Assembly (NCBI GenBank): GCA_016201695.1
Contig: JACQCK010000007.1
Location: forward strand, 1-36,063
Origin: Candidatus Roizmanbacteria bacterium
GTDB lineage: Bacteria; Patescibacteriota; Microgenomatia; UBA1406; GWC2-37-13
Direction of reading: 5' to 3'
DNA: 36,063 nt
Under the pieces are notes generated by a model. That model did not search any database, was not told the DNA's origin, and was given only the letters and a program-made list of their open reading frames with translations. Shown here piece after piece: positions 3,552 to 21,858 of this stretch. A program made the translations under genes and the position numbers. The first letter of the stretch is position 1. The number at the start of each line of letters is the position of its first letter.

Positions 3552-4288
3552 TAGATACTCGCATTTCGGTCGTGATACCGGCATATAATGAAGAGAAGCG
3601 TCTTGGCGAATGCTTGTCGCATCTTGCCAAACAACAGGAAAGACCTGACGAAATTATTGTCGTTGACAACGATTCGACCGACGCCACGACTTTAATCGCT
3701 AAAAGTTGCGGAGTCCGGGTGGTCAGGGAAAAACAACGGGGGATGATTTTCGCCAGAAATAGAGGCTTTAATGAAGCATATTTTCCTATCATTGCCCGTA
3801 CTGACGCTGATTGTCTCCCGCCACCCGAATGGATTAAAATAATAAAACATGATTTTGCGACCGGAGATATTGACGGCTTGACCGGCCCGGTGATTTTTTA
3901 TGATCTACCATTTAGGACGGCGATTTTTGATACCCTTTATTTAAATTTTGTCAAACTTCTTCAAAGCAGCAAAGAAACGCTCCAAGGACCAAACATGATC
4001 ATTACCAGATCGATGTGGAAAAGGGTGAAACACGACGTCTGTCTTACCGATAAGCAAGTTCACGAGGACGTTGATTTAGCCATCCACATTTTGGCAGCCC
4101 ATGGTGTAATCAGACGAAATCCGCGCTTAATCATGTGTTCGTCCGGCCGCCGGATAGTCAGTAACCCACAATCATTTTTTGGGGAATATACAATACGCTT
4201 CTTTAATACCTTCCGAATTCATGCGCAAAAAAAGATCAACCGCCCTTCTGCTGACGGAAAAGTGACCGAAGCTCATTTAACGTCGTAG
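3548..4288 (+). CDS. GT2 family glycosyltransferase
   Basis: The 246-residue protein opens with ISVVIPAYNEE and has VVDNDSTDAT, then TDADC (Asp86 and Asp88, the DXD-type metal and nucleotide-sugar site), then HEDVDLA (the ED motif) before the acceptor region. This is the GT-A fold of family 2. No transmembrane segment is obvious, so it probably works at the inner face of the membrane on a lipid-linked or nucleotide sugar. The start overlaps the hydrolase stop (ATGA). The last 53 bases overlap the 3' end of the convergent DNA ligase gene. It ends in TAG. Confidence 0.87.
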   Translation: MIDTRISVVIPAYNEEKRLGECLSHLAKQQERPDEIIVVDNDSTDATTLIAKSCGVRVVREKQRGMIFARNRGFNEAYFPIIARTDADCLPPPEWIKIIKHDFATGDIDGLTGPVIFYDLPFRTAIFDTLYLNFVKLLQSSKETLQGPNMIITRSMWKRVKHDVCLTDKQVHEDVDLAIHILAAHGVIRRNPRLIMCSSGRRIVSNPQSFFGEYTIRFFNTFRIHAQKKINRPSADGKVTEAHLTS

Positions 4289-6026
4289 TCTCTTCTGGCC
4301 GTTTATCATCGCGAAACCGAACCAGTCGCGGAAAACGGAGGGCAAAACCCGGTGTGGCGACCTCAAACGCCGTACCCGATTTAGAAGCTTTTAAGACCCG
4401 CCCGGCCGTATGAATTGAAGAGCGTGTGATCTCGTCGGCCTTAATCTCAACGACGATGTGAGGATCGACCCACGCATCAACTTTCATCATTTTATCTACG
4501 TCGTAGACCGTCGGTTTTTCTGCTTGCTTATATTTTTGCGCACGTTTATACAGTTCCTTCCATTCTTCGTCGGTTAGTCCGGTTCCAATTTTAGACGTAG
4601 TCAGATAACGATCGTTTTTTTGATCATAAACGCCGACTAAGAATGCCCCGATCCCAAAATTGGTCCGTTTGCCTTTGCCTGCATCATACCCCATGATCAA
4701 GCAATCGATGGTATCTTCGATTTTACTTGAATAGCTTTTTTTAAATTTAATCCAGTTCCAACCACGCGCTCCGGCCTGATATACCCCATCCAGTCTCTTG
4801 GCGATAATTCCCTCCAAACCTTTAGCTATGGCGTCTTCAAAAAGCCTGTCGACCTTTTTAGGATCGGAAGTAATTTCAGTCGGCGAGGCCAGCAGTACAT
4901 CGCGATGAGTGTCGCCGTGATTTTTAATGTGTTTGAGAAGCTCTTTACTCCTCTCTTCTAAACGGGTATCGATAAAGCTTTTTCCATTCACATACAACAG
5001 CTCAAAGGGGAAAAGCTTGAGCGGGATTTTTTTGGCTGTTTCTTGAATATCATATTTTCTTTTTCGCTGGACAGTCTCCTGAAATGGCAAAAATGTATTA
5101 GTTGTTTCTTCGTAACCAATAGCTTCGCCTTCTAGAATTATTTCCTCGGCCTTCACCTCGCGCCTGACACCGGCCACAATGTCCGGATACATAAAGGAAA
5201 CGTCTTCAAGATTGCGCGAATAGATGCGTATTTCCTTTGTTTTATGTGAATAATGGATCTGTAAACGAAACCCGTCGTACTTGGGCTCAATAATGCATCT
5301 GCCTATTTGCTTAATAATATCTTCGGCGGTTGAAAGCCGCTCGGCCCGCATCATAAGAATCGGAGTGAACAGTCGGGGAACAATATGCGCCAGGCTTTTT
5401 ACGCCTTCTTTTTTCAATAAGTGGCCGATAAATCCGAGGTCCGGCCTTACGTGGTAGGCTTTTTCAATTTGCCAACGCAGCGACTTGTCGCCGCTTATCA
5501 TCCACGAATAGGCGTCAAGTACGGTCATATCCGAAAAACCGAGGCGCAGCAGCCCTTGCGGAATGCGGACAAGGTAACGGCACGATAAAGAATCGAGTCG
5601 GCGGATAAGATTAGAGAGGATGTTTATTTTTGTCTCCTGTGATCCGTCACCACCGGCAGTCGCCAGCCGGAACAGTTCGTCATATACTTTGAGAATGGTA
5701 AGATCGGTTTCTTCAAACGAGCGGATTTCCTGTTTAAACGCCTCTAATGCTTTTCCCAAATCACCCATTTTTTTGTAACGCCTGACAAATAACCGGTTCT
5801 CTAAAGATAAACCCTGGACGATGCTGCGAATAACCATTTTTTCCGCCATGCCAAAGTTGACCTTCTCATAGAGCGGCACTACTCTTCCTTGCAAAAGGTA
5901 GACTGTTTTATCGATCTCGTCCGCCGCTAATTTTTTGAATAATGAAGCCAACACTCTCGTTATTTCTAGGCGTGAGGTAGTCTTTTCAATTTTTTCGAAA
6001 TAATCGGCGAGTTCTTTAAATTTCAT
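4236..6026 (-). CDS. lig: ATP-dependent DNA ligase, archaeal type
   Basis: At 596 residues this matches the full-length three-domain archaeal/eukaryotic-type ligase. It has a helical DNA-binding domain (about 1-200), an adenylation domain with motif I EPKYDGFR (nucleophile Lys249), YSRN (motif Ia, about 269-272), EGEAIGY (motif III, about 299), EGIIAKR (motif IV, about 405), WIKFKK (motif V, about 425), and a C-terminal OB domain with IGTGLTDEEW. Most bacteria replicate with NAD-dependent LigA, and bacterial ATP ligases are usually shorter LigD or LigC types. This is either transferred or a lineage trait. TATAAT lies 11 bases before the ATG at the end of the Fic gene, which sits 12 bases upstream. 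Confidence 0.93.
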   Translation of the reverse strand: MKFKELADYFEKIEKTTSRLEITRVLASLFKKLAADEIDKTVYLLQGRVVPLYEKVNFGMAEKMVIRSIVQGLSLENRLFVRRYKKMGDLGKALEAFKQEIRSFEETDLTILKVYDELFRLATAGGDGSQETKINILSNLIRRLDSLSCRYLVRIPQGLLRLGFSDMTVLDAYSWMISGDKSLRWQIEKAYHVRPDLGFIGHLLKKEGVKSLAHIVPRLFTPILMMRAERLSTAEDIIKQIGRCIIEPKYDGFRLQIHYSHKTKEIRIYSRNLEDVSFMYPDIVAGVRREVKAEEIILEGEAIGYEETTNTFLPFQETVQRKRKYDIQETAKKIPLKLFPFELLYVNGKSFIDTRLEERSKELLKHIKNHGDTHRDVLLASPTEITSDPKKVDRLFEDAIAKGLEGIIAKRLDGVYQAGARGWNWIKFKKSYSSKIEDTIDCLIMGYDAGKGKRTNFGIGAFLVGVYDQKNDRYLTTSKIGTGLTDEEWKELYKRAQKYKQAEKPTVYDVDKMMKVDAWVDPHIVVEIKADEITRSSIHTAGRVLKASKSGTAFEVATPGFALRFPRLVRFRDDKRPEETTTLNELRSLFRQQKGG

Positions 6027-6038
6027 TCAGCTTGTAAA

Positions 6039-7082
6039 TTATACCACTACGTAGCGCGCTGCTTTGGTGCTTCCGACTTTTTTAAGAAGCTGTTTTTTAA
6101 TCAGATCCTGAATGTCACGAAGCACCGTGTCTTCCGATATCGTCGGAAAAACGGTCGTAAACGATTGATTTTGCAAGTAACCTATTTCTTGAATATACTC
6201 GATGATTTTCATTTGTCGTTCCGTCAGATAGATCTGCTGCCCGCCGAACTTATTTTTCATTTTGACGTCTTTTGATAACCGCAAAATTTTTTCCTTGATG
6301 CGTTCAAACTCCGCGGCCGCTCCGAAGGTAAAGTACTCTAACCAGGCGGTCATATTGCCCGCCGAAGCTTTTTGTAAATTTTCATAATAGGTGACGGCAT
6401 CCCGATCATAATACTCTTCGAGCGAAAAAAATCGTCTGATGTCATACCCGCCAAGAAAGAGAATTAGAGTCGCCATTACCCGGGCGACCCGACCGTTACC
6501 GTCAATAAAAGGATGAATACGGACAAGCTCATGGTGGACAACCCCCGCTTTAAGAACCGGGTGTATTTCTTCACCGGTCTCCCTATTTAACCAATAAACA
6601 AACTCTTTCATGAGAAAAGGGATCTCGATCGGCGGGGGCGGCCGGAAGGTAATCTCGCCGTTTTGGGAATTACGGACGACTACCTGTTTCAGACGGTACT
6701 CTCCCGCTTCATTGTCCGGAAGAATTTTTAAGACAATAATTTTATGCAGCTTTTTGATAAGCGGTTCAGCAATCCTATCTATCTGTTTTCGCGCCTCTTC
6801 CTCAATATATTCGATAACGTGTCGATAGTTAATGATCTCTTGGATATCGCGCGGCCGACCAACAATTTCTTTACCCGACAGAACGTCTTTGGCCTCTTCT
6901 TTATGAAGTTGGTTGCCTTCGATATGAGTGCCGTGATAGACCGCCCGCACAATCGCGTCCTCCTTAAACTGCTTTTCCCACAGGGGAAGAAGCGGCGAAT
7001 GCCTAATGACCTCAACTGCGGCTTCGATTTTGGAAATGTTGATCAGTATTTTATTGCTGATAGAATAGGCGGGCGAAAACAT
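6039..7082 (-). CDS. Fic family protein with C-terminal winged helix
   Basis: The 347-residue protein has the complete Fic active-site motif HPFIDGNGRVAR (residues 190-201, catalytic His190), typical of AMP-transferring enzymes that modify protein hydroxyls. Near the N terminus GTHIEGNQL (about 51-59) resembles the inhibitory helix of class II Fic proteins, but the first Ser/Thr of the usual motif is Gly. The last 65 residues form a winged-helix-like domain (LTERQMKIIEYI onwards, ending RYVVV), a common arrangement in bacterial Fic regulators that bind DNA. No toxin-antitoxin partner is adjacent. TATAAT at 7090-7095 ends seven bases before the ATG. Confidence 0.92.
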   Translation of the reverse strand: MFSPAYSISNKILINISKIEAAVEVIRHSPLLPLWEKQFKEDAIVRAVYHGTHIEGNQLHKEEAKDVLSGKEIVGRPRDIQEIINYRHVIEYIEEEARKQIDRIAEPLIKKLHKIIVLKILPDNEAGEYRLKQVVVRNSQNGEITFRPPPPIEIPFLMKEFVYWLNRETGEEIHPVLKAGVVHHELVRIHPFIDGNGRVARVMATLILFLGGYDIRRFFSLEEYYDRDAVTYYENLQKASAGNMTAWLEYFTFGAAAEFERIKEKILRLSKDVKMKNKFGGQQIYLTERQMKIIEYIQEIGYLQNQSFTTVFPTISEDTVLRDIQDLIKKQLLKKVGSTKAARYVVV

Positions 7083-14398: not shown

Positions 14399-14520
14399 TG
14401 CCCTGGTTATTAGTGCGATCTGGAACCACCCTTACCCATCCCGAACAAGGAAGTGAAACGGATCAGCGTCAATGATACTCCACGCTTCGCGTGGGCGGAA
14501 AGTAGATCATAGCCAGGGCA
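14399..14520 (+). rRNA. rrf: 5S ribosomal RNA, stand-alone
   Basis: The ends TGCCCTGGTT and AGCCAGGGCA form the terminal stem. Inside are the conserved CCCATCCCGAAC and GGAAGTGAAAC of loops B and C, and later the GCTTCGCG hairpin and the GGAAAGTAG stretch. The length of about 122 is normal. No 16S, 23S or tRNA gene is nearby and the gene has its own promoter, so 5S is unlinked from the other rRNAs at this locus. Its 3' end abuts, two bases away, the stop of the convergent gene at 14522, and no terminator is evident. Confidence 0.93.
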
Positions 14521-19840: not shown

Positions 19841-20788
19841 ATGATCGGCGGGGAAGAAAATCCTACGGCTAACCGGCCGAAAATCGAATTTGCCAAACTT
19901 GACGATGACAGATCTCATTTCAGTTTTACCCAACTTAATCTTGCGGCAAAGTCGGGTGCCTTGGCTATACCGCTTAACTTAAGAAAAGTTCCCATCGATG
20001 AAATAACCGCCCAGTCGAAGATTGACGGATACGTTGCCATCGGCGAAAGTAAACAGTTGGAGGAATTAAAGTTAAAGGCCGCCGGCCTGACCGGTCTACC
20101 GCTCGAGTCAAGACTTGAAGAGCTGATGGAGTTGACAAGATCGGCGCTTAAATATTTCGGGAAAGCGGCAAAAAAAGAACTAAAAGACAGTAATCCGGAC
20201 GAATTTGATTGGCTCGATGCAAATATTACCGCCAAGTCTGACTACAAAGCCACTTTGACTCAAGCCCTTGATCATGGTTACGGCATCTGTGGCCATTTTA
20301 CTGCCTTATATGCCTTACTCGCCCAACAGGCAGGCCTCGATGTTGTTGTTAACCACTGTGCTGCAGACATGGTTCCGGTAAACATCACCCGGTCTGATAA
20401 TCACTTACCATTATTCAAAGAGGTCCCGGTGGGAGAAAAGGTTGGAGCTCATATGTTTTTAGAAATACTGACAGATAATCGCGCGATTCCAGTTGATCCG
20501 GCGACAAATTTAATCGGTTTGAATAGTGAGGGACTGCAAATGTTTCGACAAGCACAGTACGGTGACGTTCAACTGGCTTATGGACAAAACGAAGTAAATT
20601 TACAACCCCCTACCTTATTTGTCAATATTAGCGCTCACGTCCCTGCCGGAAATTTAACGCATCAAGGGAATCTTAAAATTCAAAATCTTACGGAAACCGA
20701 TTTTGCCGGACCGTTTTCTTTCGATATGGAAATGAACAATATGAGGGCCCAAAACGGCGGATTGACAATCCTCGGCCTGGCTCAATAA
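19841..20788 (+). CDS. Transglutaminase-like cysteine protease-fold protein
   Basis: The 315-residue protein has the core of the transglutaminase fold with a complete Cys-His-Asp triad in the right order: Cys150 in GYGICGHFTALY, His204 in GAHMFLEIL, and Asp219 in AIPVDPATN. The N-terminal part (residues 1-120) is unassigned. No signal peptide is seen, so it is probably cytoplasmic. Bacterial members are often peptidases or amidases, and the substrate is unknown here. The frame is open upstream to 19595, but the TATAAT box fixes the start at 19841. After its stop begins a 690-base stretch with the attenuator and a broken gene. Confidence 0.75.
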   Translation: MIGGEENPTANRPKIEFAKLDDDRSHFSFTQLNLAAKSGALAIPLNLRKVPIDEITAQSKIDGYVAIGESKQLEELKLKAAGLTGLPLESRLEELMELTRSALKYFGKAAKKELKDSNPDEFDWLDANITAKSDYKATLTQALDHGYGICGHFTALYALLAQQAGLDVVVNHCAADMVPVNITRSDNHLPLFKEVPVGEKVGAHMFLEILTDNRAIPVDPATNLIGLNSEGLQMFRQAQYGDVQLAYGQNEVNLQPPTLFVNISAHVPAGNLTHQGNLKIQNLTETDFAGPFSFDMEMNNMRAQNGGLTILGLAQ

Positions 20789-20900
20789 ATCCGCGCTTAA
20801 CGCCTCTCTCGGTTGTAATCATTGAAAAATCAACCGGATGAATTGGAAGTTTTGTCTACTTCGATCCAAGCACGGACTAAACAGAAGTTTTTATAACCGC

Positions 20901-20929
20901 TTGTAAATGTCAAATCACGGTACTATAAT
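20901..20929 (+). promoter_or_regulatory. Promoter of the attenuator leader
   Basis: TTGTAA at 20901-20906, exactly 17 bases, TATAAT at 20924-20929. The predicted start is near 20936, about 125 bases before the terminator ends. Between 20789 and 20900 there is only a short hairpin (CGGTTG/CAACCG near 20810-20840) without a T run. Confidence 0.6.
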
Positions 20930-20969
20930 AATAATCGTGAACGGCTATATAATTATAACCTCAAAACCA

Positions 20970-21008
20970 ATGATGATGCTTACCGGCCAACGGGAGGTTA
21001 TAGTGTGA
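20970..21008 (+). other. Possible 12-codon leader peptide in the attenuator
   Basis: Three ATG codons in a row open a frame reading MMMLTGQREVIV and ending in TGA at 21006-21008. It lies in the loop and the 3' arm of the first hairpin and in the 5' arm of the antiterminator, so ribosomes on it would affect folding. No Shine-Dalgarno is visible and there is no obvious run of one regulatory amino acid. Confidence 0.3.
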
Positions 21009-21035
21009 TATAGCTCATAATAAATACACTATACG

Positions 21036-21060
21036 ACCTCCCGAAAGGGAGGTTTTTTTT
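21036..21060 (+). terminator. Intrinsic terminator of the attenuator
   Basis: A seven-pair stem ACCTCCC/GGGAGGT closed by a GAAA tetraloop and followed by eight T residues (21053-21060). It lies 29 bases before the next ATG, so it controls rather than merely ends transcription. Confidence 0.85.
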
Positions 21061-21089
21061 AGCGTAAATTTGATCGGAGGTGATCACTA

Positions 21090-21441
21090 ATGATCGATCG
21101 AATAAAACAACTTAATTTTCTTACTCTTGCTTCCAATATCGGTTTAGTTACTTTGGGGGAGTGGGTTTTTATACGTTATTCGCCGCCATCACTCACGGAA
21201 GCAAAACATACGGACCGAAGAACAATCACTACCGATCATAAAAAAGACTGATCTGGGTTATGGGACAAGAACAGTTATCCAAACTCTATTTGGTAGGAAT
21301 AAAGGCGGAAGAATTGTTACCGAATCGCATACTGTTCTTACTCATAAGTTGGCTGACCCTAATTATAGAAGAACCACGCAGTCATTACGCCCTGGCAGAA
21401 AAATAACATTGACTGACGGTAGTACAGCTGAAGGCGAATAA
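21090..21441 (+). pseudogene. Small gene behind the attenuator, apparently frameshifted
   Basis: The ATG at 21090 has a perfect GGAGGTGA ribosome site (21076-21083). Its frame gives 53 residues (MIDRIKQLNFLTLASNIG, then LVTLGEWVF) and stops at 21251. After the T run near 21165 the next frame reads more naturally (YTLFAAITHGSKTYGPKNNH). From about 21241 a third frame is protein-like up to TAA at 21439 (KKTDLGYGTRTVIQTLFG, GGRIVTESHTVLTHKL, LRPGRKITLTDG). Two one-base insertions would join all three into one protein of about 117 residues with a hydrophobic start and a basic end. I do not recognise the family. If the frames are real as given, only the 53-residue peptide is made. Confidence 0.4.
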
Positions 21442-21477
21442 CAGCTGTTACAGTAAATTATAAATTAATTATTTAGT

Positions 21478-21858
21478 ATGAAAACAAACTGTCTTTCGGT
21501 TGAGGTTGTGAATATCGATCATAAATTATCCTTATTTAACGACTATTGGAGCCCGAAAATAGTCGGCCGGCTTAACGATCATAAAGTGCAGTTGGCTAAA
21601 CTCAAAGGCGAATTTGTCTGGCATCATCATGACAACGAGGATGAGTTATTTTTGGTAATTAAGGGAAAACTCATCATCCATTTTAGCGACCGGACTATTG
21701 TCGTTAATGAAGGAGAACTGGTAGTCATTCCTCACCCGGTTGAGCACAAGCCGGAGGCGCCGGAAGAAGTCCATATTTTACTGATTGAACCGGAAAATGT
21801 CTTAAATACCGGCAATATTTCATCAAAACGGACGGTGATAAAACAGGAAAAAATCTAA
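21478..21858 (+). CDS. Cupin domain protein
   Basis: The 126-residue single-domain cupin has FVWHHHDNEDELFLVIKG (first cupin motif, with the metal-binding His cluster and Glu) and GELVVIPHPVEHKPEA (second motif with His). Metal binding is therefore likely, and small cupins of this type act as isomerases, dioxygenases or sugar-binding sensors. No partner gene identifies the substrate. It follows the broken attenuator gene on the same strand after a 36-base gap. Its 3' end overlaps the convergent histidine kinase gene by four bases. Confidence 0.88.
   Translation: MKTNCLSVEVVNIDHKLSLFNDYWSPKIVGRLNDHKVQLAKLKGEFVWHHHDNEDELFLVIKGKLIIHFSDRTIVVNEGELVVIPHPVEHKPEAPEEVHILLIEPENVLNTGNISSKRTVIKQEKI

Follow-up and report, generated by a model that had tools for sequence, protein, structure and literature searches.

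A predicted leader-peptide attenuator with a run of methionine codons in a Roizmanbacteria genome, and a family of similar elements across the Microgenomatia

The stretch of DNA analysed here, hereafter the window, comprises 36,063 nucleotides from the 985-kb genome of a Candidatus Roizmanbacteria bacterium, a member of the class Microgenomatia within the CPR (Patescibacteria). For one window protein the nearest named relative is in a Candidatus Gottesmanbacteria MAG (61% identity), as fits that class. Behind a gene that ends at 20788 lie a promoter, a short leader reading frame, the arms of three alternative hairpins, a strong ribosome-binding site, a 53-aa open reading frame and a cupin-domain gene (Table 1). 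Elsewhere the window holds a 5S rRNA gene (14402-14518, + strand, 71.5 bits), with no 16S or 23S gene in the window, and an ATP-dependent DNA ligase gene that adjoins a gene for a Fic-domain protein (4236-7082, - strand).

Table 1. Features of the leader and the genes that follow it, in window positions
Feature	Positions	Strand	Basis
Sigma-70-type promoter, TTGTAA-17 nt-TATAAT	20901-20929	+	Consensus scan, 10/12
Putative leaderless leader-peptide ORF, GTG start, MNGYIIITSKPMMMLTGQREVIV, stop TGA at 21006-21008	20937-21008	+	Sequence; 7 nt behind TATAAT; translation predicted
Segment 1, 5' arm of the 1:2 anti-antiterminator	20944-20962	+	Folding
Control codons ATG ATG ATG (Met-Met-Met)	20970-20978	+	Family position; shuffling
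Segment 2, including GGGAGG at 20992-20997; partner of segment 1 or of segment 3	20991-21006	+	Folding; common to about 250 relatives
Segment 3, antiterminator 3' arm and terminator 5' arm	21026-21043	+	Folding; flanking-pair covariation in relatives
Intrinsic terminator, segments 3:4, GAAA loop, T8 tract	21035-21062	+	Folding and sequence
Strong Shine-Dalgarno site CGGAGGTGA ahead of the 53-aa ORF	21075-21083	+	Sequence; weak local TGATC/GATCA hairpin
Orphan ORF of 53 aa, presumably the first gene under control	21090-21251	+	ORF call; homologue search; coding score
Gene for a cupin-domain protein, perhaps second in the transcript	21478-21858	+	Pfam Cupin_2, 1.6e-10

The position of the promoter puts the predicted start of transcription at about 20936-20937, and its score and 17-nt spacer back the original prediction of a transcript start near 20936. 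That prediction had also described a 9-pair hairpin, a 16-pair antiterminator and a capped terminator, all of which we recover at the positions it gave. The 1:2 hairpin joins TATAACCTC (20954-20962) to GAGGTTATA (20994-21002), and in the fold it extends to about 20944-21016; the 2:3 antiterminator pairs CGGGAGGTTATAGTG, the whole of segment 2, with segment 3; and the 3:4 terminator reads ACCTCCC-GAAA-GGGAGGT at 21035-21054, followed by T8. By partition function the three helices are mutually exclusive, and the minimum free energy of the leader is -37.6 kcal/mol against -22.95 +- 3.23 kcal/mol for shuffled sequences (z=-4.5), with none of 200 shuffles as low.

The leader reading frame runs for 23 codons to its stop, begins at the predicted 5' end of the transcript with no Shine-Dalgarno site, and stands at a distance from TATAAT that is also the mode among relatives. 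Its three methionine codons begin 23 nt and end 14 nt ahead of GGAGG; when the leader was shuffled 20,000 times, Met-Met-Met arose in none of the shuffles and any triple at that position in 116. We infer leaderless translation from the GTG, a start that is rare among relatives (4 of 140 by rule) and that is poor on leaderless mRNA in some bacteria (PMC9031893). Two parts of the leader had been put forward as sensors, and neither stands as proposed. The 12-codon ORF at 20970 is most likely the tail of the 23-codon frame, with which it shares its stop; taken as the leader itself it was rejected, as it has no Shine-Dalgarno site and would begin on the control codons themselves. The 31-base loop belongs to the leader reading frame and is no aptamer.

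Folding with a simulated ribosome, whose footprint was assumed to reach from 18 nt upstream of the A site to 14 nt downstream of it, separates the states that such a leader would need. The terminator forms with a probability of 1.00 when no ribosome is present, when the ribosome sits at the stop codon, and when it stalls late, at Gln, while a stall at the first, second or third Met codon gives the antiterminator a probability of 0.90, 0.94 or 0.95. Overall, we believe, with a probability of roughly 0.8, that the window element is a ribosome-mediated (trp-type) transcription attenuator that senses charged tRNA-Met. In such a scheme, RNA polymerase would start at about 20936, leaving the 5' end of the mRNA at or within one base of the GTG, where leaderless initiation would begin synthesis of the 23-codon leader peptide. 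With plentiful Met-tRNA, the ribosome would reach the stop at 21006 and mask segment 2, so that the 3:4 terminator forms; were no ribosome loaded, 1:2 pairing would lead to the terminator as well. When Met-tRNA is scarce, the ribosome would stall on the three ATG codons and mask segment 1, which would let segments 2 and 3 pair and so block the terminator, and the 53-aa ORF, then possibly the cupin gene, would be transcribed.

Methionine is the probable signal in this copy, and the same folds bear on the other candidate. An ATA-ATT-ATA run lies upstream in the leader, and a stall at these isoleucine codons also favours the antiterminator (probability about 0.70), as would be expected if the signal were isoleucine, or the state of translation at large through stalling of the antibiotic type, and not methionine. 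We consider this improbable: the antiterminator is favoured more strongly by the Met stalls, no resistance gene lies behind the leader, and the spacing is wrong. Among the relatives described below the median distance to GGAGG is 25 nt (quartiles 23-27) from the start of the control run and 12 nt (11-14) from its end. Their control codons fall in a zone 18-29 nt ahead of GGAGG, where the Met run, at 23 nt, fits and the Ile run, at 44 nt, does not; the Ile run was rejected as the sensor on this ground.

The relatives came from a comparison of 20880-21500 with 144 related genomes, which gave short matches at the terminator in about 25 of them. Their flanks follow a common plan: a TATAAT, a start codon a few bases on, a short ORF that repeats one amino acid in a run, GGAGG, then CCTCC-loop-GGAGG-T tract and the gene. 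The corresponding pattern, GGAGG-N20-50-CCTCC-N3-9-GGAGG-N-TTTT, was seeded by the window, which matches it by construction. Of the 72 genomes that represent the family 39 carry it, and of the 373 that represent the class (Microgenomatia, CPR) 178 do, whereas the reversed pattern, used as control, gave no match and one match, respectively. In the rest of the phylum the count is about 22 of 348 genomes. In all, the class yielded about 250 elements built in this way, and close examination covered 171-172 distinct ones. Recurrence of the same CCTCCCGAAAGGGAGG hairpin in relatives, together with the upstream gene end at 20788, might be taken to mean that the window holds a plain terminator of the upstream transcript, which by chance looks like more and regulates nothing. 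That reading is very improbable, for the promoter sits between the upstream gene and the hairpin, the fold is far more stable than its shuffles, the Met-Met-Met run is correctly placed, and the reversed pattern is absent from the family.

The helices of the relatives covary beyond the motif that was searched for. Bases that flank the anchors pair with their own partners in strong preference to swapped ones, both in the terminator (z about 10) and in the antiterminator next to the anchor (z 9.4 and 9.2). Gapped duplex energies beyond the anchor are likewise lower with the true partner, at -5.18 vs -3.22 +- 0.17 for 2:3 and -9.60 vs -8.29 +- 0.12 for 1:2, all of these values being uncorrected for shared ancestry. 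Covarying arms, the test that the original prediction set for itself, are thus found in the flanks of the relatives.

Leaders that begin at the 5' end of their transcripts appear to be common in this family. In 140 of 172 distinct elements a start codon (126 ATG, 10 TTG, 4 GTG) lies 4-11 nt behind a TATAAT-like box, with a mode of 7; under a stricter rule, an ATG stands 6-9 nt behind a box with five of six matches in 75 of 171 elements, as compared with 6.8 +- 2.4 after shuffling, and 54 of these 75 also have a -35 box (0.8 shuffled). A Shine-Dalgarno-like site precedes 3 of 140 leaders but 72 of 162 next genes. The spacing of start codon and box and the scarcity of Shine-Dalgarno sites together point to leaderless initiation.

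In the relatives the amino acid that is repeated in the leader matches the gene that follows. Threonine leaders precede threonyl-tRNA synthetase (ThrRS), threonine synthase (ThrC) and aspartate kinase; serine leaders SerA/SerB, and cysteine leaders cysteine synthase (CysK); Phe/Tyr/Trp leaders DAHP synthase and prephenate dehydrogenase; isoleucine leaders IleRS and citramalate synthase, and Ile/Val leaders dihydroxy-acid dehydratase; leucine leaders LeuRS and lysine leaders LysRS; histidine leaders HisRS and a histidine-racemase-like protein; and methionine leaders (R)-SAM hydrolase-like proteins. The mean cognate fraction, taken over 52 pairs, comes to 0.236, and to 0.085 +- 0.012 once partners are shuffled (none of 20,000 shuffles as high; p<=5e-5; 12.6 sd). 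The exceptions are L062, L133 and L142, with a cognate fraction of 0. Together with the exclusivity of the helices and the covarying flanks, this match upholds the complete antiterminator/terminator switch that had been proposed.

The leaders in these pairs were chosen blind to their amino acids, and the genes were named by HMM and clustering after the loci had been seen, which is why checks that start from the gene matter. Two such tests, for ThrRS and SAM hydrolase, are independent of the GGAGG pattern. With ThrRS genes taken from 57 relatives, runs of at least three Thr codons (ACN) precede 10 of 24 readable ThrRS genes and occur in 0 of 28 control regions; a strict scan also places a terminator in seven of the ten. 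One of the ten is the ThrRS of the window genome itself (L237), where a putative leaderless leader, MSLLNFVIVTTTTCPR*, is followed by a terminator whose sequence differs, TCCCACGCCGCGCGTGGGA-T8 with the stem CCCACG/CGTGGG. Thus this genome holds two or more copies of the design, which does not depend on GGAGG. Methionine-rich leaders precede all four readable SAM hydrolases: L201 has MKQTLKTSTMAMVAV, read by eye, L203 MSKLIQTSMMMVMRAG and L204 MKLGVYMMAMDSA, and the leader of L205 ends in MSMMMTC.

Several further observations concern single elements or groups of them. An MMM leader, MTKKYYSKFSPVMMMPLFLGGNV, stands ahead of a 268-aa protein for which neither Pfam nor NCBIfam gives a match (L014), a candidate new methionine-related gene. 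HHHP leaders lie ahead of the histidine-racemase-like protein in L023 and L024 and ahead of an Asp/Glu-racemase-family protein in L064, which may also act on histidine. In nine serine leaders (L005, L006, L007, L026, L033, L038, L061, L172 and L191) a peptide MNxRVDFxNN(Y/F)SPSSSS is conserved between genera to a degree that control codons by themselves would not require. Leu/Val/Ile-rich leaders (L092-L102, L137-L146 and others) precede proteins of about 60-100 aa, mostly lineage-specific in appearance and slightly poorer in leucine (0.058 vs 0.079, p=0.02) than the proteins that follow leaders of other kinds. Tandem attenuators precede one gene in L011 (1372 and 1501, reverse-strand positions; Cys/Thr-rich leaders) and one gene in L070 (633 and 734, reverse-strand positions; Thr-rich leaders).

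The target of the window copy is less certain than the switch itself. The next gene, its presumed target, is an orphan. Among 144 relatives the 53-aa ORF has no convincing homologue (best other E = 0.02), and its coding score, 0.08, is weak: in-frame sequence scores 0.21 +- 0.10 and off-frame sequence -0.27 +- 0.17. Orthologues of the cupin gene in relatives have no GGAGG-type attenuator upstream, and the cupin was rejected as the cognate gene for that reason. Given the orphan ORF and the attenuator-free cupin orthologues, the window copy may either control an orphan small protein or be a relic, that is, a real attenuator whose methionine gene has decayed or been replaced, with 21090-21470 as the debris. 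A relic would also account for the 53-aa and 48-aa ORFs both lacking homologues and Pfam matches, and for the weak coding signal that three frames share. At the same time, the promoter, leader, all three helices and strong Shine-Dalgarno site are intact, and 59 of 131 class elements with a close first ORF precede one of less than 110 aa, some without known relatives and some perhaps spurious, so that elements of this kind often have an orphan target; on balance we think a relic unlikely, though well worth keeping in view. A decayed gene in 21090-21470 derived from the family's known downstream proteins was considered and rejected (best tblastn E 0.014, a short match). Translational control, as proposed through pairing of the terminator's ACCTCC strand with the downstream GGAGGTGA site, finds no place in the folds (pair probability 0.00); the TGATC/GATCA flanks of the Shine-Dalgarno site do fold, into a weak hairpin only.

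Almost nothing is known of gene regulation in the CPR, whose mechanisms of cell-cycle regulation were called virtually unknown in a 2024 perspective (PMC11665869). If the repeated amino acid of a leader names its signal, the leaders would show which genes are switched on at amino-acid shortage and would name functions for orphan genes of uncultured bacteria; they would tie SAM hydrolase and the histidine-racemase-like gene to amino-acid starvation, and they predict widespread leaderless translation in the class. We would go further only tentatively, to a picture in which the whole class senses amino-acid supply through hundreds of leaderless attenuators with a GGAGG/CCTCC core, which act on genes of synthesis and tRNA charging and also control many orphan small proteins, the 53-aa ORF being one, induced by starvation in keeping with a host-dependent lifestyle. 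The window element would give methionine a leader-peptide attenuator, and we know of no earlier one.

Regardless of its target, the element differs from known RNA sensors. At gathering or relaxed thresholds the element matches no Rfam family, be it SAM riboswitch, T-box or leader (Phe_leader, at 19.6 bits, falls below its cut-off of 55), and 20 relatives give nothing at gathering score. Like SAM riboswitches (S-box) and T-boxes, the element would place methionine-related control in premature termination, but in those classes the RNA or a tRNA is the sensor. Its two-state terminator/antiterminator architecture and 31-nt loop are what one would expect of a new metabolite-binding riboswitch or T-box, yet we give that reading hardly any weight: besides the Rfam result, the loop is coding, and the loops of relatives share no sequence, only control codons that vary with the next gene. 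The new riboswitch that had been suggested thus gives way to a translated leader peptide as the probable sensor. The accompanying statement that it belongs to no known class holds for sequence families; it does not hold for mechanism, which is probably attenuation of the trp/his/thr type.

Hundreds of such switches in the class seem not to have been described before: in a literature search that left subscription papers and preprints outside its scope, we found no publication on attenuation in CPR, Patescibacteria or Microgenomates. Canestrari in 2020 reportedly described leaderless polycysteine uORF attenuators in mycobacteria. That work is cited in PMC9094748 and PMC9031893. The CPR elements resemble these mycobacterial cysteine leaders in the leaderless short ORF, the run of a single amino acid and the attenuator role. 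A 2005 comparative study found mycobacterial cys leaders without conserved terminator hairpins (PMC1262725), whereas the CPR elements have an intrinsic terminator and an antiterminator and serve many amino acids. Its survey of Actinobacteria gave candidate attenuator leader peptides for the trp, ilv and cys operons and for trpS and leuS, and no RNA structure ahead of the operons for methionine, threonine or histidine (PMC1262725); the CPR family shares the leader peptides but has structures for Met, Thr and His. The closest likeness in plan is to trpL, hisL, thrL, leuL and pheL of the Proteobacteria, with their short leader ORF and control-codon run, segments 1:2, 2:3 and 3:4, intrinsic terminator and cognate biosynthesis or tRNA-synthetase gene downstream. 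Unlike the Trp_leader, His_leader, Thr_leader, Leu_leader and Phe_leader families of Rfam, the CPR leader begins at the 5' end of the transcript without a Shine-Dalgarno site, and unlike the proteobacterial attenuators the CPR family is built on a common GGAGG/CCTCC stem core and appears to sense methionine, as well as serine, cysteine and lysine.
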